From assembly GCA_949317995.1 (NCBI GenBank), contig OX439040.1, positions 76,543,972 to 76,607,971 on the forward strand: 64,000 nt of DNA, in the 5' to 3' direction. Positions within the stretch are counted from its first letter, which is position 1. The number at the start of each line of letters is the position of its first letter. Shown here piece after piece: positions 2,136 to 63,094 of the stretch. Source of the DNA: Acholoe squamosa (Eukaryota > Annelida > Polychaeta > Phyllodocida > Polynoidae). The notes beneath the pieces are model-generated. The model was not told where the DNA came from and made no database searches. It saw only the letters and a program-made list of their open reading frames with translations. A program made the translations under genes and the position numbers.

Positions 2136-2701
2136 CTGTGAAAGAGATGAAGCAATTTTATAAAGTGATAATTTCTTAACATCAGAGGGAAAGCTGAGAG
2201 AAGGGCAAAAATAGTATGTGATTTTGAAGAGTAGGTTCTCCCCTGTTTTTCAGTTATAAGGTAGCGCCATCATATATAGGGCACGGCTTGGGTTCGAAGA
2301 TTTATTTCATGTAAATTACAATGCCCCATCGAGATAACATTGAAGGGCAGTATGCCACACCCCCAGTGGCGTAACATGTCTCGCTCCTCACTGTGGGTGT
2401 AGGGTTAATTGCGTAACCCCATTGATTTAATAATGGGTAACACAGGTTGCTGTCTTGTCGGTCATATATTAACTCGTTAACTTGATGGTCAGTGGTGTGG
2501 TGTGACTGTGGTTGGCAGCTCACCACATGTACATCAGCTCAGCCCTATTTCTGTCCTGTGTCTGTTGATGGGTCTGCTGACTGCTGCCACGGGCACCCCA
2601 AGGCCTCCAGGGGCTGAACATGTAGTTCAGCAATCAACAGAGCCATCTCTCCACCAAGCATAAAAAATGCGGGACCATCATGGCGGCAAGGTGGGGAACA
2701 C

Positions 2702-5127
2702 GCAGGATACCGATGACAGCGGTTTAGCTAGTCCTGAGGGCTACAGCGCCTGCCGCGTCCACGCTGACCTAAATACACAGACTCTATGTGGAGCCTCCTG
2801 CGGTGAGCGTAGGTGCGCGGGCATAGTGGTAGTCCTCAGGACTACTGCTAATAATGTGATTCTTAAGTCTAATACTAGCTAGTAAGGCCATCCTGAGTCC
2901 TGGGGACTAGATATGGCGATGGTCTAGCCACACAGCTAAACTGTACCTGTACCTGGGACTAGATTGTAGACCTAGGGACTACATTTATAGTTCCGAGGTC
3001 TAAAATTGTACTAGCTTAGTCCTCAAGACTGAAATGTAGTCCCAAGGAATACACCTCTAGTCCCTAGGACTAAAGCCTTTAGTGAAGGTGTAATGCTTCT
3101 GACTAGAATGATAGTCCTAGGGACTAACACTAGTCCTTAAGATTAGATCCTAAGTCCTGGGGACTACATCTTAATAGTCTTTACAAAATTAGATACCAAT
3201 GAATTAATTCATAGTCCTATGGACCACATATGAGTCCCCAGGATGAATGATCTAGTCTTGAGGACTAATATCTAATCCCTAGGACTATCATCCCACAAGG
3301 GGAGGGGGAGGTCGGCCTTGGTGACAATAGTTCTGGTCCAGCACTAGTAGGTGGTCCTCAGAAATATAAATTCATTCATTGATGTCTAATGTAGTTCAAA
3401 GCATGGATGTAGTCCCCAGGACTTCGGATCTAGTCCTCAGGACAGGTTTTTAGTCCCTGGGACTACACCTTTAGTCTTTGGGACTGGACATATAGTCCTG
3501 GGGATTACATTTTAGTCTTGAGGACAAGGCAAGTATATTTTTATTGTTCAGGACTACCATTATTAAAACAGATAATCCCTGTGATTATATGAACCTTGAA
3601 CTAGGGTATAAATATGAAAGGGGCCGTCTGATTGATTTCTAGCCCGAGGACTATAGTTTTAGTCCCTAGGACTAAAGATGTATTTCCCCAGGAGTAATGT
3701 CTAGTCATTATGGATATGTCTCTAGTCCCTGGCACTAAATGGGTAGTCTTCAGGACTAAAATCTAGTCCTCAGGTCTATAATCTTTAGTCCCTAAGACAA
3801 AGGGTGTAGTCCTCAGGTCAGAGGAATGATCCTGAGGGCTATCTATAGTGGAATAATCCTGAGGGCTAGAAAACAAGGCAGACTATACATATTTATACCA
3901 TAAATGCCTAGATTTCTCATCCCAGGGACTATGTGTTAGTCCTGAGGACTTGACAAATATGTTTTAAGTCTTCAGGACTAACACCTTCTCCCTGGGACTA
4001 TGAATCTAGCACTGTAGGGTACTAAATATTTATAGGCTGCCTTGTTTTCTATCCTGAGGACTAAACCAGTACGTTTTTAGTCCTCAGGACTAAACAGGTA
4101 GTCTCTAGGACTAGGATCGGTCCCGAGGAAACCATAACTTGTTCTTCAGTTTGGGGACTAAAATGTAATACTGTAGTCCTGAAGTGTACTGAGTAGTCCT
4201 AAGGACTGAAATATATTCCTCAGGACTGAGTTTGTAGTCCCAGGGACTAAGAAACCCTGGGTGTTTCTGGCACCCCGGGCAATACCCACTGACTATATAC
4301 TATACAAATATATTGACTAGAGTATAGAGAGGTGCTCCTGGGACTGAGTGCCTTAGTCCCAAGGACTAAAGGTACAGTCCTTAGTTAAGACTGGACAGAT
4401 GCGCCTAGTTCTGGGGACTAAAACATAGTCCTTGAAGCTAGAGATGTGGCCCTGGGGACTACAGGCCCTCGTTCACACGATCACTTGTCTAGTTCTGCTT
4501 TAGTCCTAGGGACTTGAAACTAGTCCTCAGAGAATAGATCTGTAGTCCTGGGGGCTACCTGTTAGGTCATGAGGACTAAACATGTAATAGCGTATTTGCC
4601 TAGTCCTCAGGACTAATAGTTGGTCCTAAGGAATATGAATTCATTCATTTATGTCTAATATAGTTGGGACTATGATTGTAGTCCCCAGGATTAAGGTCTT
4701 GTCCTGAGAACTACATGTTAGTCCCTAGGACTACTATCCTTCAAGTATAACTACACCCTTAGTCCTAGGTACTAGAGGTATAGCCCTGGGGGCTACTATT
4801 TAGTCCTTAGGACTAGGCAGGTTTTTAGCCCCCCCCCAAAAAAAGAAAGCAACAAAAACCTGTAGGAAAGTACCACTTCCTAATAATTCAATCTGGGAAT
4901 ATTTTTGGAAGTTCTTTCACCATTGGAAAGCCATTGTCATAGTACCACATTGTACCATATGGCAGACATCGCACATCGTGCTAGTCCTGAGGACTAGGCC
5001 CCAAACCCTCGCACCTACCACTCACCGCGGCAGTCCCCGCGTAGCCTGCGTGTATTCTAGGTCAGCAAGGACGCGGCAGGCGCTCTAGCCCTGAGGACTT
5101 GTTAAACCCCTGTCATCGGTATCCTGT
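2702..5127. mobile_element. Palindrome-array DNA transposon 1 (9-bp TSD)
   Basis: A 2426-bp element. Its target-site duplication GGGGAACAC lies at 2693-2701 and 5128-5136. The TIRs start GCAGGATACCGATGACAG and are similar for about 170-200 bp, with a CGCCTGCCGCGTCC block inside. The whole interior is a lattice of odd palindromes of the form AGTCC-NNN-GGACT, one roughly every 20-35 bp. No ORF of note. A segment near 3345-3440 recurs near 4615-4710, so the interior grew partly by duplication. The 9-bp TSD suggests a MuDR/Rehavkus-type transposase (inference). Confidence 0.85.
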
Positions 5128-5136
5128 GGGGAACAC

Positions 5137-6900
5137 CCATAACAGCTAAGTCCCCACCCAGCCCTGTATGGTGGCACCCCCTTCCACTCAACCCCTGTAA
5201 GGTGGCTCCCTCTATGACTATACTACATGGGCCATACACCACTGCAGCCTCATTTTGGATGCAGGAAAACATTCAGAACATTCAGTTCAGTTCAGAATAT
5301 GAGAAAACATACTGCCTAAGTCTGCCTTGTCTCACTCCCCTATCCCTTCTCTTGAGAAAATTTGGGAGGGAGTGATCACTTCAGTACCAAAAAAAGGGGG
5401 TGTACTTAAAAGGGTATACATGTGCGCTGAATAAATCAAATACTGTATACATAGTACTGTTATATATGGAAATCTTTTATCTTTATATATTGATAACTCT
5501 ATACATATTCCTATTACTATAGATTGTATATCATAGTACTATGTGTACACTGTACACACACCTCCCCCTTAGTTACACATACTGCTGATAGGGGTCGCCT
5601 CCATCGCGACCATACCTACCTGCTGATTCCCTCATAGATCTTTGTTTATTTTTGAAATATTGCTACTCTAAAGATATTGCTCTATCAACAATCTAACTGG
5701 AGTTGTAAGAATTACAGCACATGCTACACACCTTCAGTATGAATAAAAGACGTTACATACATACATTACATACAGCAAAAACTAAGCATATAGGGGTGAG
5801 GAAGGGGGAGGGGTCTTGAGGCTAGGGGATTGAGAAAATCGGAAATTTAAATACACGCGAAAATGCGTTTTATTGCAAATTCGCGAAAATTTATACACTC
5901 GAAAATATCTACATTACACTAGTATCATTAAGACTCTGTACAATATGCTGGAATAAATACAACTACATTATAAACTGATACAAGGTCTTGCCTTTTAGTC
6001 ATGTACACTTGATAGCATTTATAGCACATCAAGATATGACAGTACATACAGTAAGATAGTATAATAAATAAACTGTTGCTAGGGCTGTTGCTCAACTATG
6101 TTCTGAAGTTTCTTAGATACAAATTTATATGATGAAGGTTGACACATTTTGTAGTCTTGGCCAGACTATAACGATGAGATGTGGATATATTCATAATATT
6201 TATAATTATAAATTCCTAATAACCTGCCTTATATTTGCGTACTGTGAGGTTTTGGAGATGTGATTTTTCAAACAACTAATCTAGGATTACTTTGTTGTGA
6301 TTCACTGTTAGTGAGGTAACTGTTGTCATCCATTTTTGGATCCCTATGGTATGGTAGTTGTGAGTGAATCACCAATATGCGGACTAAAAACTTGATTTAG
6401 TGTAAATAATTTCTTGAGCTCAAATCAGTGTTTACTTCTTTAATTTTGTTATCTCTATCTTGGTATTTTTCCCTTTTCGTCCATGTGTGTCCTGCCATGT
6501 TATGTCTATGTCATGTCCTGTGTAGTCATAATTCATCATCATAATGTATGTGAAGCATTTTTACTCATTATCTAATTGGGAATCATAAGCCTGTGATTCA
6601 AACTCTATAGTAACAAAAACTTGAGACACTGTAATAGTGCATTATATTGAGCTTGCTTGGAAACAATATGTGTTACAATTGAACTTGATTTAATAACTGT
6701 ATGTCAATTTTCCACTTATTTCATTTGTGAGACGTACAATAAACTTCTTTTCAACCTAAAAAAAACAAAAAAACAATATGAGTATGACTTAAGAAAAGCC
6801 CTTTATGTATAGGATGCTCGCATCTAAAATCATCTTTCATCATGTATCTCTACATTGCGTGCATTATATACAATAGTAAGGAATGAATAAAGGTTAGTAC
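5137..6900. other. AT-rich intronic sequence of TTLL-A
   Basis: No gene or clear repeat seen. Ends in a possible old retroposed tail (TTTTCAACCTAAAAAAAACA near 6748). Confidence 0.4.
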
Positions 6901-10673: not shown

Positions 10674-10931
10674 TGTTAGTGTGGAAGCCATTTTGTGGAG
10701 GATAATTTGGGCATTTACTTCTTCAAATTAAAGGATTAATCAAGAAACACTTCTTCAATTTGGATTCTCTGACTCCTCGTGGCCCACGCTGAAGGTCCGG
10801 AAGTACTACATTTTATTAAGTTGTCTCCAGTTAAAACAACAAAGTTAGTTCCATTCTCTCACCACAGAGGGTGGCACAGTAGCGCTGTTCCCGCGCTCAT
10901 TTACCGAGGATCGTGGGTTTACACCCTAACA
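10674..10931 (-). repeat. 3' LTR of the Copia element
   Basis: A 258-bp LTR preceded (element orientation) by the polypurine tract AAGTGGGGG at 10932-10940 and followed by the ATTCG duplication. Confidence 0.95.
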
Positions 10932-11054
10932 CCCCCACTTAAACTTACGATCGATACATTACTTATGTATACAATTTTGAATAACATATATCAGATATGA
11001 TCAATACAATATTTATGATAACACATCAGGTTATCAATACATGATGATTTAGAT

Positions 11055-14000
11055 TTATGTACCCATTAGTACACTCAGGAACTTCACAAGCCTGGGTTTT
11101 GCAACCGGCTTTGTGAAAACATCGGCAATGTTTTCTGCTGTGGGTACATACTCTAGCTTGAGAGAATTATTCTGCACTTCATTTCTCACAAAATGATATC
11201 TGATATCAATATGCTTAGACCTTTGATGATGTACAGGATTTTTAGCTAGTGCCAATGCACCTTGGTTGTCCCCATACAAAACAACACTCTCTGTTTGTTT
11301 AATACCGGTCATGTCAGTAAAAAGTTGATTAAGGAACTTTACCTCTTGGGTAGCAGCTGACAGAGCCATATATTCAGCTTCACAAGTGGAAAGTGCAACT
11401 GTCTGTTGTTTTCTACTTTTGTACGAAATGAGTGAACCATTGTTGGTCAACCTGAATGCATAACCAGTTATGCTCTTTCTGTCATCAGATGCATCCCAAT
11501 CGGCATCACAAAAGCCACTGAGTTCTAACTCAGCATCAGATTTTTGAAATCTTAGTCCATAATCAAGTGTACCTCTGATATACCGTAGTACCTGCTTGGC
11601 TCTACCAAGATCAGCTTTGGTGGGATTCACCATATGTTGAGATAGTTTTGTTACAACATAACACAGATCAGGTCTTGTGATTGACATACAATAGATGAGG
11701 CTTCCCACTATTTCTCGGTACTGCTTAGCGTCAGCTAGCTCTTCGGAATCCTCATCCTTTGTAGTATTGGACCCTACATCACAAGGAGTCGATCTGGGTT
11801 TACAATCTTCCATTTTGAACCTTTTCAACAACTTCTCGACATATTTGGTTTGGTTCATTTCAATAGATCCATCTTCACATTTGAACTCAATACCTAGGAA
11901 CCATGATAACTTACCAAGATCCTTCATTTTGAATCTGGTGGACAGAGACTGTTTGACTGTGTTGAGTGTCTTCTCATCGCTTGCTGCAATTATAATATGA
12001 TCAACCCAAACTACAACAACAGTCTTGGAATTTTGTTCAAACTTAGTATATACACATGAATCAGTCTCAGACTGTTGGAAACCTTCCTCCTCAAGGTAAG
12101 TGTCCAACATGTTGTTCCAGTTCCTACCACTTTGCTTTAAACCATACAGAGATTTATTAAGCTTGCAATACAATTTCTCACCATTTTTACCTTTCACCTC
12201 ATAGCCTTCTGGTTGTTCGATATAAAGTTCACAGTCTATCGGCGCATTCAGATAGGCTGTCTTAACATCCATCTGGTGAACAACCATGTCCTCTTGGACG
12301 GCCAACTGCATAAGCATGCGAATCGATGTGATACGGGCAGTGGGTGAAAAAGTCTCATGATAGTCAATATTTGGGACCTGAGAATATCCTTTGGCAACAA
12401 ACTGTGCCTTGTACTGTTCATCAACGTTTTGTCCCATTTTCATTGCATACACCCATCTACCCCCCACTGCAGATCTACCCTCAGGTAGTGTGGTGAGTTC
12501 AAAAGTATCATTGTCAATTAACGCATCCATTTCTACATCCATGGCGTTCTGCCATTTTTGCGCATTGTCCGAGTTCATAGCATCGGTATATGAGTTCGGG
12601 ATGTGTGACATACGATAACAATAGTCCACAGTGGTGGTTACATAGTCCTGCAAATAGCCAGGCGGGTTACGTCCTCTGCGGGGATACCTAGCATTGTCCC
12701 TATTACCCTGCAGGTTTAGATAGGGTTCACCACCAACCCCATTCTGAGGAGCATCATCAGCTACATCCGGAGCTGGGTAAAGTTCAGGTTCTACCTGAGG
12801 TGTGGTATACACCGGTTCATCACAACTGTCTGTTACCTCCTCAAACTTATCAAAGAACTTCACACATCTTACTCTACGCACAATGTTACGCTCGGGAATA
12901 TACACAAGATATGCTGGGCTACACTTATCATAACCTACAAAGATACCCTTCTCGCCGCGATCATCCAGCTTCTTCTTTTCCTGTACATAGGCATAACACA
13001 CAGTACCGAATACATGCATACCGCTCAAGTCTGGTTTCTTACCTGTGAGCGCTTCGAATGGTGTCATATTGACCCTGTCATTGAAACATCTGTTTCTGAT
13101 GTATACACTACACATAACAGCATAAGTATACATTTCTTTAGGTAATTTGGCTTCTAATAACAGACATCTTGCCATATCAAATATTGTGCGCCACGATCTT
13201 TCTACTGTACCATTTTGGTGAGGTGAATAGGGAGCTGTTTTCTCATGTTTAATCTGATTTTTGACCAACAGAGCTTCGAAACTTGCACTAGTAAATTCGC
13301 CCCCATTGTCTGAACGAATACACTTCACCTTACCATATGGTGCACAATCAGCAAGGAACTTCTCTGTAGCTGTTACAGTGTCGCTCTTCTGCTTCAGAAA
13401 ATAAACCATGTTTACCCCTGAATAGTCATCTACAAAAGATAAGGCATACCTGAAACCGTCTCTTGCTGTAGGATCAATTGGGCCTGCGAGATCACAATAA
13501 ACAACATCAAGTGGGGCCTCTGCCCGTTTATCTGGATCATGATTTCTGAACTGCGACATTTTACCTTTTACACAGGTATCACAATCAAAACTGTTCTTAT
13601 CGCTGACTTTCATACCATCAACAACTGACTCGAGTTTCATGCAATCTCTTACATTACAGTGACCAAGAATTTTATGCCACTCTTCCACTGGGTGGGATCG
13701 AACACTAGATTTACCAGTTTTGTTGAGAAAATATAATCTACCATATTTCTCTATTTCAAAGCGAGTACCATCTGGCGCATTTAATTCGGCTGAGTCGGGA
13801 CTGAACTTAACACTGGCGCCTTTTTCAGTTGCCGCTTGCACTGAAAATATATCCTGCTTATAGGATGGGACATAGAGGGCATTCTCTAAAAGAATGTTGT
13901 GTGGCCTACCTGTACTGTCCTGAATTTGTACACTGGCTGTACCTTTACCTGCCACAACACCGTTTGTACGGCTGCCATCCGCCAACTCTATGTAGTGTTT

Positions 14001-14972
14001 CTCTGGAACAAAACTTTCATCAAATTTGACAAATTTGGATTTTTCGGTAACAATATGAGTAGTTGCACCACAATCAACCAATAAACTATACAGGCTAGTT
14101 GTATTACAAACATCCGCATAATCAACGCTAACCTTGAACGCAAATGCATGACCCGGTTTCGAACTATCGTCGCTGGCTACTTTAGCCGAGTCCTTCTTCC
14201 TACACTGATTTGTATAGTGAGTTTTGGTTTTACAGTTATTGCACCACTTGTTACCCTGCTTTTTATTTTTACACTCAAAAGATCTGTGTCCTGGTTTTCC
14301 GCAAGCATAACATGTATAACTCGGTTTGCTGGGGTTGTCACTCTTCCCGGCATCGGACACAGTTTTCATCACATTCTCCTGTCTCGAGTTGAACTCAGCG
14401 TCACTCGACCGGCACTTTTCCGTCTCCTCAAAATTTCTAAGTGCCACTTTAAAGTCACTGAACCTATGGTCATCCTTTTGGGTGGTAACAGTTCCAAAAG
14501 TATTATATTCAGCTGGAAGACCTTTCAGAACCATAGCAACAAGTAAACTGTCACTCACTTCTTCCCCTGCCTCTTTCAGCGCATTTGAAGCGGTCTCCGC
14601 ACGGATGACGTAGTCGGTGATACACTCATCAGTACCTTTTCTCAATGATGTCAGTTCAGTGTAAAGGGAAATAACCCTGGGCTTACTTTTGCCTTTGTAA
14701 TGGTCTCTGAGAATTTTAAGAGCCTGTCTGCCATCATCCTTAGCATCTCTCATGATAAGGGATAAGCTCCTATCATCCAAATACTGTACAATTTCTGCAT
14801 ATGCCTCTGCCTTCTTATCTGCAGCTGCAATACCATTCCCAGCAATTGTATCCAGTAACTTCATTTGCCTCATGTGGCCTAAAAATCTACATTCCCAGAG
14901 TTCATACTTGCCCTCATCTCCATCAAACATCAACCTGTGCCTGGGACCATGACCTGTTAGTGTGGAAGCCAT
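11055..14972 (-). CDS. Copia Gag-Pol polyprotein, RT catalytic residue changed
   Basis: An unbroken 1305-residue ORF. The order is Gag with two CCHC knuckles (CYACGKPGHRSFEC and CNNCKTKTHYTNQC, about 220-260), protease (VDCGATTHI, about 300), integrase with an HHCC zinc site and DDE blocks (YCDLAGP, SDNGGEF, PHQNGTVERS), RT (about 835-1085) and RNase H (DADWD, CEAEYMALS, GDNQGALAL). Integrase before RT is the Copia order. The normally invariant Asp pair of the RT active site reads WVDHIII: the second Asp is His (codon at 11999-11997). RT activity should be lost. The first six codons lie inside the 5' LTR. Confidence 0.95.
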   Translation of the reverse strand: MASTLTGHGPRHRLMFDGDEGKYELWECRFLGHMRQMKLLDTIAGNGIAAADKKAEAYAEIVQYLDDRSLSLIMRDAKDDGRQALKILRDHYKGKSKPRVISLYTELTSLRKGTDECITDYVIRAETASNALKEAGEEVSDSLLVAMVLKGLPAEYNTFGTVTTQKDDHRFSDFKVALRNFEETEKCRSSDAEFNSRQENVMKTVSDAGKSDNPSKPSYTCYACGKPGHRSFECKNKKQGNKWCNNCKTKTHYTNQCRKKDSAKVASDDSSKPGHAFAFKVSVDYADVCNTTSLYSLLVDCGATTHIVTEKSKFVKFDESFVPEKHYIELADGSRTNGVVAGKGTASVQIQDSTGRPHNILLENALYVPSYKQDIFSVQAATEKGASVKFSPDSAELNAPDGTRFEIEKYGRLYFLNKTGKSSVRSHPVEEWHKILGHCNVRDCMKLESVVDGMKVSDKNSFDCDTCVKGKMSQFRNHDPDKRAEAPLDVVYCDLAGPIDPTARDGFRYALSFVDDYSGVNMVYFLKQKSDTVTATEKFLADCAPYGKVKCIRSDNGGEFTSASFEALLVKNQIKHEKTAPYSPHQNGTVERSWRTIFDMARCLLLEAKLPKEMYTYAVMCSVYIRNRCFNDRVNMTPFEALTGKKPDLSGMHVFGTVCYAYVQEKKKLDDRGEKGIFVGYDKCSPAYLVYIPERNIVRRVRCVKFFDKFEEVTDSCDEPVYTTPQVEPELYPAPDVADDAPQNGVGGEPYLNLQGNRDNARYPRRGRNPPGYLQDYVTTTVDYCYRMSHIPNSYTDAMNSDNAQKWQNAMDVEMDALIDNDTFELTTLPEGRSAVGGRWVYAMKMGQNVDEQYKAQFVAKGYSQVPNIDYHETFSPTARITSIRMLMQLAVQEDMVVHQMDVKTAYLNAPIDCELYIEQPEGYEVKGKNGEKLYCKLNKSLYGLKQSGRNWNNMLDTYLEEEGFQQSETDSCVYTKFEQNSKTVVVVWVDHIIIAASDEKTLNTVKQSLSTRFKMKDLGKLSWFLGIEFKCEDGSIEMNQTKYVEKLLKRFKMEDCKPRSTPCDVGSNTTKDEDSEELADAKQYREIVGSLIYCMSITRPDLCYVVTKLSQHMVNPTKADLGRAKQVLRYIRGTLDYGLRFQKSDAELELSGFCDADWDASDDRKSITGYAFRLTNNGSLISYKSRKQQTVALSTCEAEYMALSAATQEVKFLNQLFTDMTGIKQTESVVLYGDNQGALALAKNPVHHQRSKHIDIRYHFVRNEVQNNSLKLEYVPTAENIADVFTKPVAKPRLVKFLSVLMGT
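14937..14954 (-). promoter_or_regulatory. Primer-binding site, half-tRNA-iMet type
   Basis: Directly after the 5' LTR the minus strand reads GGTCATGGTCCCAGGCAC. It resembles the internal, anticodon-side primer site used by Copia-type elements (GGTTATGGGCCCAG), with two mismatches. It is also coding (Gag codons 7-12). Confidence 0.65.
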
Positions 14973-15212
14973 TTTGTGGAGGATAATTTGGGCATTTACT
15001 TCTTCAAATTAAAGGATTAATCAAGAAACACTTCTTCAATTTGGATTCTCTGACTCCTCGTGGCCCACGCTGAAGGTCCGGAAGTACTACATTTTATTAA
15101 GTTGTCTCCAGTTAAAACAACAAAGTTAGTTCCATTCTCTCACCACAGAGGGTGGCACAGTAGCGCTGTTCCCGCGCTCATTTACCGAGGATCGTGGGTT
15201 TACACCCTAACA
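14955..15212 (-). repeat. 5' LTR of the Copia element
   Basis: A 258-bp LTR (5' in element orientation), identical by eye to 10674-10931. The Gag-Pol ATG lies 18 bases inside its end. Confidence 0.95.
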
Positions 15213-34942: not shown

Positions 34943-35341
34943 CCACGCCCCCTCCCCACACACACTCAAACTGCTAAGGACGGCTACTGTAAAACCAGGG
35001 CTATACGTCAATTTTCTATTTGCATTATTTTTCATATAAGTCAATATTTTCCCAAAGAGAGGTGTCGACTTATAGGCAGAGTTTGCATATACATGTATAG
35101 TTAATAGTTCTCAAGCACTTTTTCTATGGGTCAAGTTTGTTTCCCAAAAAGGGGGGTCGACTCATAGGCAGGGTCGACTTATAGTTAGGGTCGACTTATT
35201 GGTGAGGTTTACGGTATGTTATACCTTTTCACTGAGCATACATCAGCTTGGAGCTGTTTCAGATACCAAATGATAATAAGGTCAGCCCATAGGACTGAGC
35301 AGTCTGGTGCATTCAGGCATGAAGTATTAATCACTCGGGCG

Positions 35342-35591
35342 GATGCCTTTGAACATAACTGTTCTAGTCACAGCTTTCTAGCAGTGTAAGGATGGCCTTT
35401 GAACATAACTGTTCTAGTCACAGCTTTCTAGGAGTGTAAGGATGACCTTTGAACATAACTGTTCTAGTCACAGCTTTCTAGGAGTGTAAGGATGACCTTT
35501 GAACATAACTGTTCTAGTCACAGCTTTCTAGGAGTGTAAGGATGACCTTTGAACATAACTGTTCTAGTCACAGCTTTCTAGGAGTGTAAGG
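35342..35591 (+). repeat. 50-bp tandem repeat, 5 units, ending at the TTLL-B start codon
   Basis: Five near-identical 50-bp units (GAACATAACT recurs at 35351, 35401, 35451, 35501, 35551). ATGs recur at 35342, 35392, 35442, 35492 and 35542, and the sixth (35592) is the TTLL-B start. The four units from 35392 each hold an ORF of 15 codons ending in TAA, two bases before the next ATG (TAAGGATG). It may act as 5' leader if transcription starts upstream. Confidence 0.9.
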
Positions 35592-35822
35592 ATGGCTAGG
35601 CTCTGCCGAACATGGAGATACTATAAGGAGCACATTATCATCATTATGGTGGTTACAGCTATATGTATGTATAAAGGCTTTCTACAACATATCAGATCTA
35701 TTAATGTGAGGACTGTGCAGCTCACAGGCTTACAACTTGCTAAGCAAAATAAGCCTGTAATTAACTTTACACCAAATGCAGCACTAACCCTGCCACACAC
35801 AGCGATGGTTAACTGCGAAGGG
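35592..35822 (+). CDS. TTLL-B exon 1: start codon and membrane anchor
   Basis: The ATG is in good context (A at -3, G at +4) and opens a 77-codon exon ending in GTGAGT, phase 0. Residues about 14-28 (HIIIIMVVTAICMY region) form one hydrophobic span after a basic N-terminus, which fits a type II signal anchor. The rest (PVINFTPNAAL) aligns with TTLL-A exon 1. The ATG is the last in a ladder of ATGs spaced exactly 50 bp apart in the tandem repeat directly upstream, so the start rests on the anchor and frame and not on homology alone. Confidence 0.7.
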
Positions 35823-38079: not shown

Positions 38080-38559
38080 CTAAGTACTCCATTCAGTTTG
38101 TCTGGACATGATACTTCTCAGTTGAGCAGCTGGTACACCGGGGTAAGGAGCTTTGCTACACAACATTCGGTCGACACACTTTTGACAAAAAGAGTCAAAT
38201 GGTCCCTTTGAACAATGACACATTTTTCTCCAGAAGTCTGAGCTCTCTTGCAAAAGAGAAAGTAACATGTTGATCGATTCTATCGTATATCGCCTTTTGA
38301 CGAAAGCACATGTGTTCTCGTCATGGAATTGATATACTCCTATAACTCTATCTGTGATGCTACCAACCATTCTTTGAAACGCATCTTTGAAACACACACT
38401 CAAAGAATCAAATACATCATTAGAAACTAACATTTTATGAACACCTTGGTTTAACAACGGAGCCTTAAAGAACAAAACATCTGATCCATCTATTATTTCC
38501 CAAGTGAAAATGGGATCGCAGGCACACATTGGCTTGTTTTTTTGTTTTTTTTTCAACAC
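38080..38559 (-). CDS. Unknown ORF downstream of PolB
   Basis: A 159-residue open frame starting MLKKKQKNKPMCAC, with Cys pairs near the end (CHCSKGPFDSFCQKCVDRML). It lies about 120 bp after the PolB stop in the same direction, inside the TIR element. I do not recognise it. The C-x-C...C-x2-C set could bind metal. A small late gene of the element is the simplest guess. Confidence 0.45.
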   Translation of the reverse strand: MLKKKQKNKPMCACDPIFTWEIIDGSDVLFFKAPLLNQGVHKMLVSNDVFDSLSVCFKDAFQRMVGSITDRVIGVYQFHDENTCAFVKRRYTIESINMLLSLLQESSDFWRKMCHCSKGPFDSFCQKCVDRMLCSKAPYPGVPAAQLRSIMSRQTEWST

Positions 38560-38680
38560 TGATACACGAGGTAAGTCGGTGGACGAAGTAGATGAAGTTA
38601 ATACACGAACAAAGGGTATTATCTCACCGGCATCTACATCTACATTTTTTTTTTTATATTATATTTTTTTTTTATTATTT

Positions 38681-41600
38681 TCATAACTCTAAAGCACTCG
38701 TCGTCACCCCGTCAGAATGTATGCGACGCTTCACATATAAGTAAGTCAGTCCCTTTTTCTCTATCATGTAAGTGTGCATTTTGTTTTCTATTACTTTAAA
38801 ATTTGTATTAACAGCGCGGATAGTTTTTTGTTTCAAAAGAACATCCAAGAAGTCTTTGGGTTCTTGAACATTTTGTTTTTTTATGACACCCTTTGCACTC
38901 CATTTCTTTGATTTTCTTTCACCTGTCGAGTCTTTATCATAGCAAATGTAAGTCTTGGAGTTGAGACTTAGAATTCCATTGCCCTCCCACTCGGATTTGA
39001 AAAGACCCGGAGTTCTCTGATCGTGAATGTAGCATTTCTGACAACAAGCGAAGGGGATCCATTCTTTGACGCCTTGGGATTTTATCTTTACGAAAAGCTC
39101 TAAGTGGTCATCGCACACCGCTGTTGGAATCCAGTTTCTTTTCTCTCTGAAGTACGATTCTCTCAGGTCGGGTTTCACAAGTTGGTCCAATGATTCACCG
39201 CTGAGAGCCATGTAAAGACTGTCAGTGTCCATTTAACAAAGAGCGTAATCGCGGCGATCAATGAATTTATCCAAAAATGTGAACTCTAACATTTTTTTTA
39301 ACTTGGCGTACTGGTACACCATGAATCCTATTTGAATAGGAATATTGTTCCTGACTATTTTTGGTTGCAGTTCGACTTCAAAGAGATCTGTGCTCAACTC
39401 TGTACCCTTTTTGAACCGCCACAAATAGGTCAATAATTTGAACGTTCGACCTCTAGTGTATTTCACAGTGGTATGTTTTTCTTTGTTGCAAATTCTTTTA
39501 CCATACATGGTGTTTCCCATCAACTTGTAACAGTCTGATAGAATTTTCTCGTTCGCGTTTACATCACCACGTCTTAGCACCACGGTTACTTCGTCTGCGA
39601 AACCGGCGAAGGGACTTCTAGGAAAATATTCTATGAACAGGTGCACTTCGGTGACTGTTAAACAACTGGTAAATACCACTTAAGAAGAAGCGTTCCCGAG
39701 AGAATCTTTTTCCATGGTAACTACCTATCAAGGATCTTTGAGGGGCGTTCATCACGTTTTCGTTGTTCGCAAAGTCTGTCATGTGAGGTCCTATGTCGGA
39801 TTTCGAAATGGTCACGTTCTTGAAAACAGGAGTCATTTCTTTGAAGTATTCACATAGGTGAGGAGGATTAGGCATGTCCACCTGAATCAAACCGAACATT
39901 TTCCGGTCTTTCACAGAGGATATGATATCGCTCTCTGTCATGGGTTGTGCGGACGCAATAACCTACGGATCCTGGTTTTTCATCGTTCTCCATTCACACT
40001 CCCATACGATGATCAACTTGTAACCTAGAGCTTTTAAGTAAATGCTTACTCTAGCTGTTCTGTCACGTTTCTCGTCCCTGTCTGAAGCACACGGATATCT
40101 GTGCAGCGATATGCACTCGTGAGCGTGGAACCAACAACCATGAAATTGGGAAACGGTGTTAGAGGACAGGTGAAAATGGTCTACGTGAATTTTTCGACTA
40201 CCTAGAGATACCTCCCCCCCTTGAAAGTGTGGCGAAGTTTCACGCTGTGGGCGTGCTCCATGTAGCGCAACCACTTTAAAGCGCTCTTAGAGTGTCTTTG
40301 CCTGATTTTCGGTTTGAACTCGATCTCGGGTCGTCTCACCAGGTAATAACCTTTGCAGTGTACTTCGCTCATGCAGCGCAAGTACAGAGAGTTAACATCT
40401 ACACCTAGGATGTGCTCGCACGTTCTCGCTCCTTCGCCGTACTTGCGTTCCCTTATCAGGGTGGTACCCTTCTCGTGAAATCTATGGAAGATTATGGAAC
40501 GACCCCTGACCAGATTTTTTTTTTATTAAAGAGTGGAGGTGGGAGTCGAACTGGTGGAAGGTCACGAATGGGGTCTCCGTGGTTTGAAAAAGGAACCGTA
40601 AAGTCAAATCCGGAAGGGAGATGCCATCTTTGAACATGTCAATGTTCTGCTCCCTGAAAAATTTAGCGTGCCTCTATGAAGGGTTTGACGCCTTTGTTGT
40701 TGTAGTGGATCAAGTAATCTCTGAAAGTTTGCATGTTCTGTTCGGACCAAACTTTTTCAAATTCGGCGTAGTCAGTTTCAGACATCTTGGTACCAGTCAG
40801 TTTGCTGTCGAATGCAGATCTTGGTGGTAGTGTTCTGTTTTCCAGTTTCCTTGTAGATGTCATCCATTATTAAGGAAAGTGTCCTTTGTGCTGATTTCTG
40901 GTGAAAGCTAGTAGATAATACGCGTAGTTATAACCAGGTGCCAAATAGTTTACTACATCCAAGAAAGCAATGTGTCGAGTGTAAATCGACAAGTATTGGT
41001 TACTTCTCTTTATGATGCTGAATTCTTCGTTCTCTCGCTCTTTGGAGGAGAAGAACAAGTGAAGCTGTACTTTGATCAGATTTAAGTCATAGCACCCCGA
41101 GTTGAAACCTACGACCAGAACTTGGCGGAGATATCTCAGAAGTTCAACTAAAGGGTGTCTTGTTCGAGTTCCATTGAAGTCAACACCAGGAGGACTGAAC
41201 ACCTCCTCTAGGTGGAGCGCTTCAGCTATCCTCTCATCTAACTTCGCTAACATCGGTTGGTAAAGTTCTAGCACTGCTTCCCCGATGATTTTTGGGGTGT
41301 CGTTTATGTAATTCAAAACTTTATCCAACAAGAGGTCTGAATCTGTGTCGGATTGTCTCATGAAGCAGACCGGACCTGGAAAGTCGTATGCGATGCTAGC
41401 CGACAGAGGGACGTGTTCCCACAGGACTGACACGTGTTCGGTCGACAGCTCTTTGGGCGGTCTGAAGAAAGCTTCAAAATCGAAGGTAATTTTATAACGG
41501 TACATTTTTAAATTTCCGTCGGGAGGAAAAATGGAAAAATATGCTAGTGCTTCGAAAACCGTTTTCGAGATTTGGTAGATTCCACCTACGTATTTCAAGG

Positions 41601-42031
41601 CGACTTGTCTGCAAGGGGAAAGTTGGTTCCTGTGTCTTTTCAGTAAGAACTTAGTCGTGAACACCGACTTATACTTGGGATATTCGTAGATGCCAGCGTA
41701 TTCATTGAAATCCGTAACGATGGACACATGCAAACCGTGTGTCGTGGACAGGTGTAGGTTGACTTTACCTCGGGCGGCCGATGTTTTGGAAGGCGGCCTG
41801 ATCAGGGTAACTCGGTTTTTTAGGTTCTGACCCCTCACTTTACGGGTGGTGTAAACTGCTATTTCTATATCCAACAAGTTCTCTAACGCGGGTAAGTCGC
41901 TGATGACCAAACCTGGAAAGAATTGAACAGACGCAATTGAACAATTTTGAAGCATGTTTGCCAGTCTTGTATAAGTGAAAGTATATGCAGCGAAAGACGC
42001 ATAACTTGTCCCTGTTGGGAAAATCTAACAC
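38681..42031 (-). pseudogene. Protein-primed family-B DNA polymerase remnant
   Basis: Ordered minus-strand pieces of one viral/transposon-type PolB. The N-terminus and 3'-5' exonuclease (41955-40870) have FDFEA and FNSGCYDLNLIK. A linker region follows (40863-40663, 40274-39963, with HGCWFHAHEC). The polymerase core (39941-39233) has LIGSYHGK and NTMYGK. The catalytic MDTDSLY block and C-terminus are at 39232-38681 (RTPGLFKSEWEGNGILSLNS). Breaks include an in-frame TAA directly before MDTDS, a stop near 39960 and a frameshift near 39660. Described as an old, inactive copy; polymerases of this type replicate linear element DNA. Confidence 0.85.
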
Positions 42032-52685: not shown

Positions 52686-53655
52686 CTAAACTACTAGAGC
52701 ATGTGAAAGACAGCGTAAAACAATCAAGTCAGTGTCAATCCTAAGGGAGAAAGGTTTGGTGAGATAAACTAAAGCAGCCATGCTCTGCCAGTCTCCTGCC
52801 TGGCGAATGTCCTCGATACTAAGACCTATGCTGTACATATATAATGCGCCTGCCCGTCTCAGTGAGTGCATACCAGCTCGATCTGGATTGAGTTTGGCCT
52901 TGGTCATCAGATCTTTGATGAAGGACAACACCATGCTGTATGTCAATGGTACAACTTTCCCCTTCTTACACATGAGGAACATAGGTGCCGTTGGGTTGCT
53001 CGTAGGAAAATCTTGAAAGTGCAATTGTAATAAAGAAGTCGCATACAATGGTGAGTTGGGGGTCATAGTAATAGGGACTTTGTGAACCCAGATAGAATTG
53101 GATAGTTTTCAAACTGGGTATGTGAAGTTCCATCCCCCAACTAGTGAAATTAACTGAAGCTCTTCTCATGAAATGACCTTCCGACTGGTTAATCCTGTCC
53201 GGCACCACATTGCTTTTCCTCAACAGGCCACGAAAGCACAGAGTTGGACAAGCCCACATTGATCTCTGGTTGGGATCTGCCCAGTCTACCATATGATTCA
53301 TGCTCAGTAAATTTTCCAGGGTCAATGAAGGACGAACCGGTGTTGGGTCTCCCGGAGTCCTCCTGATGCCTGCCAGTGTACTGATAAATTCAAAGTCTGA
53401 TCTAATGTAATTCACACCGTGACCGAAATACTTGTTTAACGACAGGACACCGCTTACATAGTTCTGAATAGTTGTATACCGGAGTGACTCGGCCAAATGC
53501 ACTATATATCTGCACATTAGTTTGGTGTCCGATGCAAGTGCAGCACATCTATGTTTAGCACAGAATTTAATATACTGCCTCCACTGTGATGTCTTCATTT
53601 TCCAGGTCCCAGGGGACCAGTCTTGTGCCCTCAGCTCTGCCGCTCTCAAATCCAA
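52686..53655 (-). pseudogene. Ngaro tyrosine recombinase, frameshifted
   Basis: The N-terminal part (53655-52966) includes the Arg-box region CFRGLLRKSN. The C-terminal part (53066-52686) has HSLRRAGALYMYSIGLSIED and then QAGDWQSMAALVYLTKP, giving the H-x-x-R, Trp and Tyr of the R-H-R-Y recombinase set. The two are in different frames, joined near 53050. The enzyme would integrate circular element DNA. Confidence 0.9.
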
Positions 53656-53749
53656 AAGTCTTCTCTCATGAGCTGGGCCTACAACACAAGAACAAAGGGA
53701 CTTGAGAATGACAATCCAATCTAGATAAAGTGTCTGCGATTACATTTAA

Positions 53750-62214: not shown

Positions 62215-63094
62215 GCTGATGCATCAATTCATCATGCCCATTAGTTGTCATGGTGCAGGATGCCCATTAGTTGTCATGGTGCAGGATGCCCATTAGTTGT
62301 CATGGTGCATCATGCCCATTAGTTGTCATGATGCAGGATGCCTATTAGTTGTCATGATGCAGGACGCCCATTAGTTGTCATGGTTCAGGATGCCCATTAG
62401 TTGTATGATGCATCATGCCCATTAGTTGTCATGATGCATCATGCCCATTAGTTGTCATGATGCAGGATGCCCATTAGTTGTCATGGTGCAGGATGCCCAT
62501 TAGTTGTCATGGTGCAGGATGCCCATTAGTTGTCATGATGCAGGATGCCCATTAGTTGTCATGGTGCAGGATGCCCATTAATTGTCATGATGCAGGATGC
62601 CCATTAATTGTCATGGTGCAAGATGCCCATTAGTTGTCATGATGCAGGATGCCCATTAGTTGTCATGGTGCAGGATGCCCATTAGTTGTCATGATACAGG
62701 ATGCCCATTAGTTGTCATGATACAGGATGCCCATTAGTTGTCATGATGCAGGATGCCCATTAGTTGTCATGATACAGGATGCCCATTAGTTGTCATGATG
62801 CAGGATGCCCATTAGTTGTCATGATGCAGGATGCCCATTAGTTGTCATGATGCAGGATGCCCATTAGTTGTCATGATGCAGGATGCCCATTAGTTGTCAT
62901 GGTGCAGGATTACAGCTAGGCTTAGTAAGTCAGCTGGAATACATTCATGCATCACACTGACCTTATGGGGTCGACATACACCCGGACAGTCAGCATGATG
63001 CTCCAATGAAGTTCAGGCGGCAAGCTTTATTGATGTATCATCACGAACAATTGATATATGATGAATTCCTGCATTAGCGGCCCTTAAAGAGTTA
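62215..63094. mobile_element. TTAA MITE family copy swollen by a tandem array
   Basis: Begins TTAAGGGAAGCTGATGCATC and ends GCGGCCCTTAAAGAGTTAA; in between the ATGCCCATTAGTTGTCATGA unit of the arm is repeated (62232-62911). Confidence 0.75.
62232..62911 (+). repeat. 26-bp tandem repeat, about 26 units
   Basis: Unit AGGATGCCCATTAGTTGTCA + TGATGC, nearly uniform, with TGATGC/TGGTGC/TGATAC variants. Confidence 0.95.

Follow-up and report, generated by a model that had tools for sequence, protein, structure and literature searches.

Our analysis of the window, the whole 64-kb stretch of the Acholoe squamosa genome studied here, points to a non-autonomous DNA transposon of the cut-and-paste kind with 9-bp target-site duplications, probably of the MULE type, whose interior is an array of predicted homodimer-binding sites with the half-site TAGTCCY. 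We assign this reading a probability of roughly 55%. The element belongs to a non-coding family with more than 100 copies in one 1.48-Gb genome.

The element in the window and its relatives

The transposon spans positions 2702-5127 of the window and is flanked on both sides by exact copies of the 9-bp target duplication GGGGAACAC (2693-2701 on the left, 5128-5136 on the right), which, together with inverted ends of 142 bp at 81% identity, confirms the transposon of about 2.4 kb proposed by the first-pass annotation. The terminal inverted repeats lie at 2702-2844 (plus strand, starting GCAGGATACCGATGACAG) and 4982-5127 (minus strand), and each 142-bp end contains two lattice sites, at 2730 and 2831 on the left and at 4983 and 5087 on the right. 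The final base of this copy is atypical, with GCAGG... at one end and ...CCTGT at the other, where most copies have ...CCTGC. The longest stop-to-stop frame measures 94 codons here and 60-123 codons in 18 further copies. The main part of the palindromic lattice, at 2896-4814, carries the motif TAGTCC-Y-N-R-GGACTA and includes larger repeated blocks: an 88-nt block at 2988-3075 (plus strand) with an inverted partner at 3469-3556 (minus strand, 76% identity), an 83-nt block at 3339-3421 with a direct partner at 4608-4690 (both plus strand, 82%), and a large imperfect inverted repeat at 3864-4054, whose arms match at 91% (3864-3895/4023-4054) and 75% (3896-3958/3959-4021).

The exact 18-base end of the family occurred 276 times in the genome, while its reversed control did not occur, and a query with the left end gave at least 40 matches at 92-100% identity, with 40 of 970 first-look candidates scored. 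Among 100 ends listed of the 276, 72 formed 36 convergent pairs separated by 1.0-5.4 kb (median about 1.6 kb) and 28 were single; no neighbours within 20 kb in this list lay in any other orientation. We fetched 20 neighbourhoods plus two resembling the window copy (W) and delimited 21 copies, namely 19 including W, together with L018 and L039. Three further copies stayed outside this set, since L023 had no left end, the second copy at L024 had none at the threshold, and L038 had no right end in its stretch. The 9-bp duplication was exact in 16 of the 21 copies (14 of the 19, plus L018 and L039), retained 8 of 9 letters in two and 7 of 9 in three; the terminal inverted repeats of the 19 copies aligned over 76-145 bp at 81-97% identity. 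All 21 copies contained the lattice, and 344 of the 361 exact sites at the 19 fetched loci fell within delimited copies, the other 17 lying in the undelimited second copy at L024. The suggestion that the element moved as a unit is therefore upheld by the duplications, relatives included, and copies lacking the palindromes or the inverted ends, which had been named as evidence to the contrary, numbered none of 21. The hAT superfamily makes 8-bp target-site duplications; membership in it was rejected because the duplication matched over 9 bp in those 16 copies.

The subfamilies share their ends and differ in the middle. A representative of subfamily A (L019, 1604 bp) and one of subfamily B (L028, 1993 bp) show 98.5% identity in the leading 618 bp and 96.4% in the final 110 bp, and carry different lattices in between. 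W resembles A at 92.9% over the first 154 bp and 86.5% over the last 104 bp, with patchy likeness in the interior, and relatives of W at four other places matched 100-526 bp of a 561-bp probe at 82-91%. Lattice blocks have been swapped among copies, duplicated in both orientations, and lost. In three B copies (L012, L027, and L028) one end is doubled, the extra end copy lying about 109 bp inside the first, and the outer end was used to delimit them. The 6.6-kb copy L018 was considered as an autonomous member and rejected, because its additional DNA carries a frame that is Ty3/gypsy-like by eye; it was left out of the rate counts. Among the listed end pairs, the longest (5.4 kb, contig C4) showed neither a 60-codon frame nor a lattice site in 1.3 kb read from its middle.

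The window also contains other repeats. A Copia-type LTR element at 10674-15212, with two 258-bp repeats that are 100% identical and an open frame of 1317 codons, looks very recent. An interrupted series of minus-strand frames at 38080-42024 is DNA-polymerase-B-like by eye and perhaps derives from a Maverick-type element, and frames at 52686-53739 are tyrosine-recombinase-like by eye. Two young tandem arrays were observed, at 35341-35594 (50 bp x 5.1, 98%) and at 62234-62910 (26 bp x 26, 94%).

The palindromic lattice and its half-sites

The exact 13-letter core AGTCCNNNGGACT occurred 18 times in the window, always inside the element, and when up to two mismatches were allowed, 55 of 72 sites in the window were in the element, compared with a mean of 20.3 in whole-window shuffles. 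When matches to TAGTCCNNNGGACTA were scored on its 12 fixed letters, the element held 12, 33, 50, 62, and 67 sites at up to 0, 1, 2, 3, and 4 mismatches, respectively, against shuffled-sequence means of 0, 0, 0.2, 2.1, and 11.0, and the 61,450 bases of the window outside it held 0, 0, 0, and 19 sites at up to 0, 1, 2, and 3 mismatches. The palindromic lattice was thus correctly recognised in the first-pass annotation, with 62 sites at up to three mismatches of 12 where shuffles gave about two, and several of its details needed revision. The lattice is dense, but the description of nearly all of the interior as palindromic is an overstatement, because the sites cover approximately 41% of the element and leave the stretches at roughly 2745-2830 and 4815-4981 without sites. 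Of the spacing given as 20-35 bp, a dominant class of 20-21 bp stands, but the spacing is not even, and 29 and 41 bp are also frequent. The unit, described as AGTCC-NNN-GGACT, often with outer TA, does have TAGTCC and GGACTA arms, but its middle three letters read Y-N-R and are not free. Helical phasing of the sites was rejected, as the peaks of all-pair distances near 10.3, 10.5, and 9.9 bp vanished without the 19-22-bp class (p=0.94). A search for the exact double site in viral contigs gave no match.

Motif statistics were taken from 159 non-redundant sites with up to 4 of 12 mismatches (from W, one A copy, and one B copy without its shared part), about 24 of which would be expected by chance from the shuffle null. 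The consensus is TAGTCC-Y-N-R-GGACTA. Its arms are 79-94% consensus, and of the central letters position 6 is a pyrimidine, position 8 a purine, and position 7 nearly uniform; outside the motif there are weak symmetric preferences for T at position -2 and for A at position +16. The contrast between these arms and the near-random spacers and central base makes an array of dimer sites the best reading of the interior. Central CpG was depleted (7 seen where 32 were expected) and TG and CA were overrepresented, so the decay of methylated CpG may explain part of the central Y/R pattern; the ratio of observed to expected CpG was 0.12-0.29 in the interiors and 0.41 in the window.

Decay of the sites and rival explanations

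Dense palindromes accompanied by larger inverted blocks could in principle form hairpins or cruciforms whose halves would stay complementary through extrusion and repair or through internal conversion; the first-pass annotation had likewise raised cruciforms and an internal conversion process. The substitutions argue against such upkeep: 221 changes of half-sites were one-sided and 13 two-sided, 6 of which were compensatory against 7.0 expected, and at five cut-offs from 2 to 6 mismatches the compensatory pairs (seen/expected: 2/2.6, 3/4.5, 6/7.0, 15/13.1, and 26/21.9) showed no excess. The central Y and R likewise vary independently, forming complementary pairs in 81 sites compared with an expectation of 80.2, and the arms are short. 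The one sign in favour is the pair formed by the 4th and 12th letters, complementary in 123 sites against 118.4 expected, at p=0.046 uncorrected for seven pairs. We regard upkeep by hairpins as very improbable. Independently mutating halves, which the first-pass annotation had listed as a refutation of its proposal as a whole, count against the cruciform reading and not against protein binding, since a protein dimer fits halves that mutate independently. The dimeric protein suggested there is accordingly the best fit to the symmetric motif and its independent halves, although the analysis identified no binding protein.

Inserted copies drift, and their sites and spacers decay almost alike. In 13 A copies the change rate was 0.0099 in sites and 0.0125 in spacers (p=0.11), and in W, L038, and L039 the corresponding rates, taken from aligned blocks in three comparisons that share sequences, were 0.062 and 0.073 (p=0.46), 0.056 and 0.099 (p=0.08), and 0.061 and 0.091 (p=0.18). 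In each of these four comparisons of recent subfamilies the rate was thus lower for sites than for spacers, none of the differences being significant. When A was aligned against W, arms exceeded spacers in 12 of 12 blocks (76-96% against 51-84%), in overlapping blocks and with an alignment that favours arms; arm conservation is inflated generally, as the arms were the criterion for picking sites and tend to be favoured in alignment. Conservation of palindromes above the spacers, named as a check in the first-pass annotation, was seen between A and W but was not significant within recent subfamilies. Over longer times the arms have thus persisted where the spacers have not, and with the near-even decay of inserted copies this leads us to infer that selection works on the transposing lineage.

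The same even decay is what a decayed satellite would display, that is, a homogeneous tandem repeat of 20-21 bp captured between inverted ends and now drifting without function. The regular spacing of 20-21 bp fits this origin, as does the loss of blocks between sites, with at least 5 bp of shared sequence at the joint in four of seven deletions identified relative to subfamily A; adjacent units in B are also slightly more alike in their spacers than random units (3.04 against 2.68 of 8 letters, p=0.04). However, decay that struck all positions evenly would have scrambled arms and spacers together, whereas the arms keep their consensus beside a central base and spacers that are near random. 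Moreover, neighbouring units were no more alike than distant ones in W (2.74 against 2.80 shared letters of 8), and the difference in A was small (3.12 against 2.87, p=0.14). A decayed satellite therefore appears unlikely to us. Sites for a host transcription factor, acquired as a means of directing the element to open chromatin of the germline, are less likely still. The TCC-YNR-GGA geometry of the lattice corresponds to that of the AP-2 core site, GCCN3GGC in the available part of the source (PMC4866721), a motif resemblance in which the symmetric half-sites lie the same three bases apart. The half-site letters differ, however, with TCC in place of GCC, and the AGT and ACT of the lattice are equally conserved.

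Under the preferred reading of an array of dimer sites, a homodimer, most likely a product of the mobilising element, would bind along the entire copy. Such dense binding might aid the assembly of a transposition complex at the ends or keep the copy accessible, so that copies with good arrays would be mobilised more and leave more offspring. The sites could then persist in the lineage through these offspring while each inserted copy decays. The family thus makes it possible to test whether a transposon tags its own DNA so as to be recognised: with a sharp predicted motif, more than 100 copies in subfamilies of varied age, and candidate proteins, both binding and silencing are directly testable.

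MULE loci and known systems

The genome contains 36 matches to the MULE domain, and nine of these loci (L029-L037) were read. L031 encodes PHD, FLYWCH, and MULE domains that all exceed the Pfam cut-offs; at L032 the MULE domain exceeds its cut-off and the PHD and FLYWCH domains fall slightly below theirs; at L036 the MULE domain was found by Pfam and a cysteine-rich PHD-like finger, unreported by Pfam, was recognised by eye. These three of the nine loci are flanked by inverted arrays of short motifs of their own: ATTCGCNCTA at L032, with six copies on each side, GACGATGTGG(CCAA) at L036, with six and five copies, and CCCAGCTTCT at L031, with seven copies on one side and nine, arranged as a 50-bp tandem repeat, on the other. 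This layout recalls Rehavkus, Tm1, and VANDAL elements. L031 is the weakest case, because its array abuts the gene. Flanking arrays were absent at the other six loci, two of which (L029 and L030) could have hidden outer arrays because their stretches measure just 4.0 and 3.5 kb, and six control stretches contained no inverted motif arrays. A candidate 8-bp duplication, TATTTATG, was seen at L036, although exact 8-mers were also shared by 23 of 300 random window pairs. A search with the L032 transposase found no relatives in the protein collection at E<=0.001. Within the PHD-FLYWCH-MULE frame of L031, a 45-bp minisatellite is repeated 24 times in frame (2699-3788 of that locus), and a 59-bp near-perfect palindrome lies beside a short tandem array adjoining the MULE gene (5780-5845).

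Both the family end GCAGGATAC and the lattice were absent from all nine MULE loci, so the link to a mobilising enzyme is one of analogy. An element combining GCAGGATACC ends with a transposase was not found at the nine loci or near the 97 listed ends on contigs C1-C5. A mobiliser of the MuDR/Rehavkus type, as guessed in the first-pass annotation, is plausible by comparison with the PHD-FLYWCH-MULE genes and their flanking arrays in this genome, but the family ends were absent from all nine loci. By analogy only, the partner could be a PHD-FLYWCH-MULE element like these, with a motif array of its own. We consider it somewhat unlikely that the family is instead mobilised by a non-MULE transposase producing 9-bp (or 8-10-bp) duplications. 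In its favour, no MULE gene was found between family ends or near the 97 listed ends on contigs C1-C5, where the 11 MULE matches lay at least 2.0 Mb from listed ends; this absence rests on 100 listed ends of 276 and on one domain, PF10551. Against it, the traits of the family fit MULEs, whose target-site duplications are given as 8-11 bp in the accessible part of the source (PMC6446971), with an exact 9-bp duplication in 16 of 21 copies and long inverted ends, a trait not universal in MULEs.

Subterminal repeats bound by a transposon protein are known in the plant elements Ac/Ds and En/Spm. The resemblance lies in several copies of a binding motif inside the ends; in those elements, however, the repeats are subterminal and far fewer, and no palindromic units extend across the element. 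Rehavkus elements, in the parts of the reports available, combine 9-bp duplications, a PHD finger, a minisatellite, and inverted ends of 26-400 bp (PMC6446971), and the inverted termini of Rehavkus-1_TC contain a satellite of 164 bp (PMC10218199). The lattice family likewise has 9-bp duplications and a minisatellite, an analogy that does not prove membership, and the PHD-finger transposase recurs at two MULE loci of this genome, neither tied to the family. The published minisatellite occupies one part of the element or consists of 164-bp units, unlike the element-wide 20-bp palindromic lattice described here. The Mutator/Foldback element Tm1 of root-knot nematodes, according to the accessible part of its description, has 9-bp duplications, ends made of many copies of 13-15-bp motifs, FLYWCH/MULE relatives, and non-autonomous members (PMC3169594). 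The lattice family likewise has 9-bp duplications and non-autonomous copies. Tm1 differs in that the motif copies compose its inverted repeats, whereas the ends of the lattice family are mostly ordinary sequence with the array of palindromic units between them. Searches of open-licence PMC full texts found no transposon with the lattice motif, the five papers that contain a lattice string having unrelated titles.

Animal transposons are not known to undo silencing through motif arrays. In the plant VANDAL elements, as far as the available parts of the reports describe, repeats of a short motif in non-coding DNA are bound by VANC and silencing is removed; the motif of VANC21 in Arabidopsis is YAGTATTAY, and motif sets vary between related elements (PMC5735166, PMC10398659). 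Motif arrays read by element-encoded proteins thus let plant MULEs undo silencing, and the lattice family shares with them an array of short motifs in non-coding element DNA. It differs in being coding-less with long inverted ends, while the plant system has an identified protein and a short motif that is not described as palindromic in those parts of the reports. What is new here is the palindromic unit, its element-wide extent, and the coding-less carriers. We would suggest, as a tentative analogy that is more doubtful than the array of dimer sites itself, that the family may be an animal counterpart of VANDAL-VANC, in which each MULE labels its non-coding DNA by a private motif array that a private protein reads, the array taking the form of an element-wide lattice of dimer sites by which coding-less copies could be recognised along their whole length.
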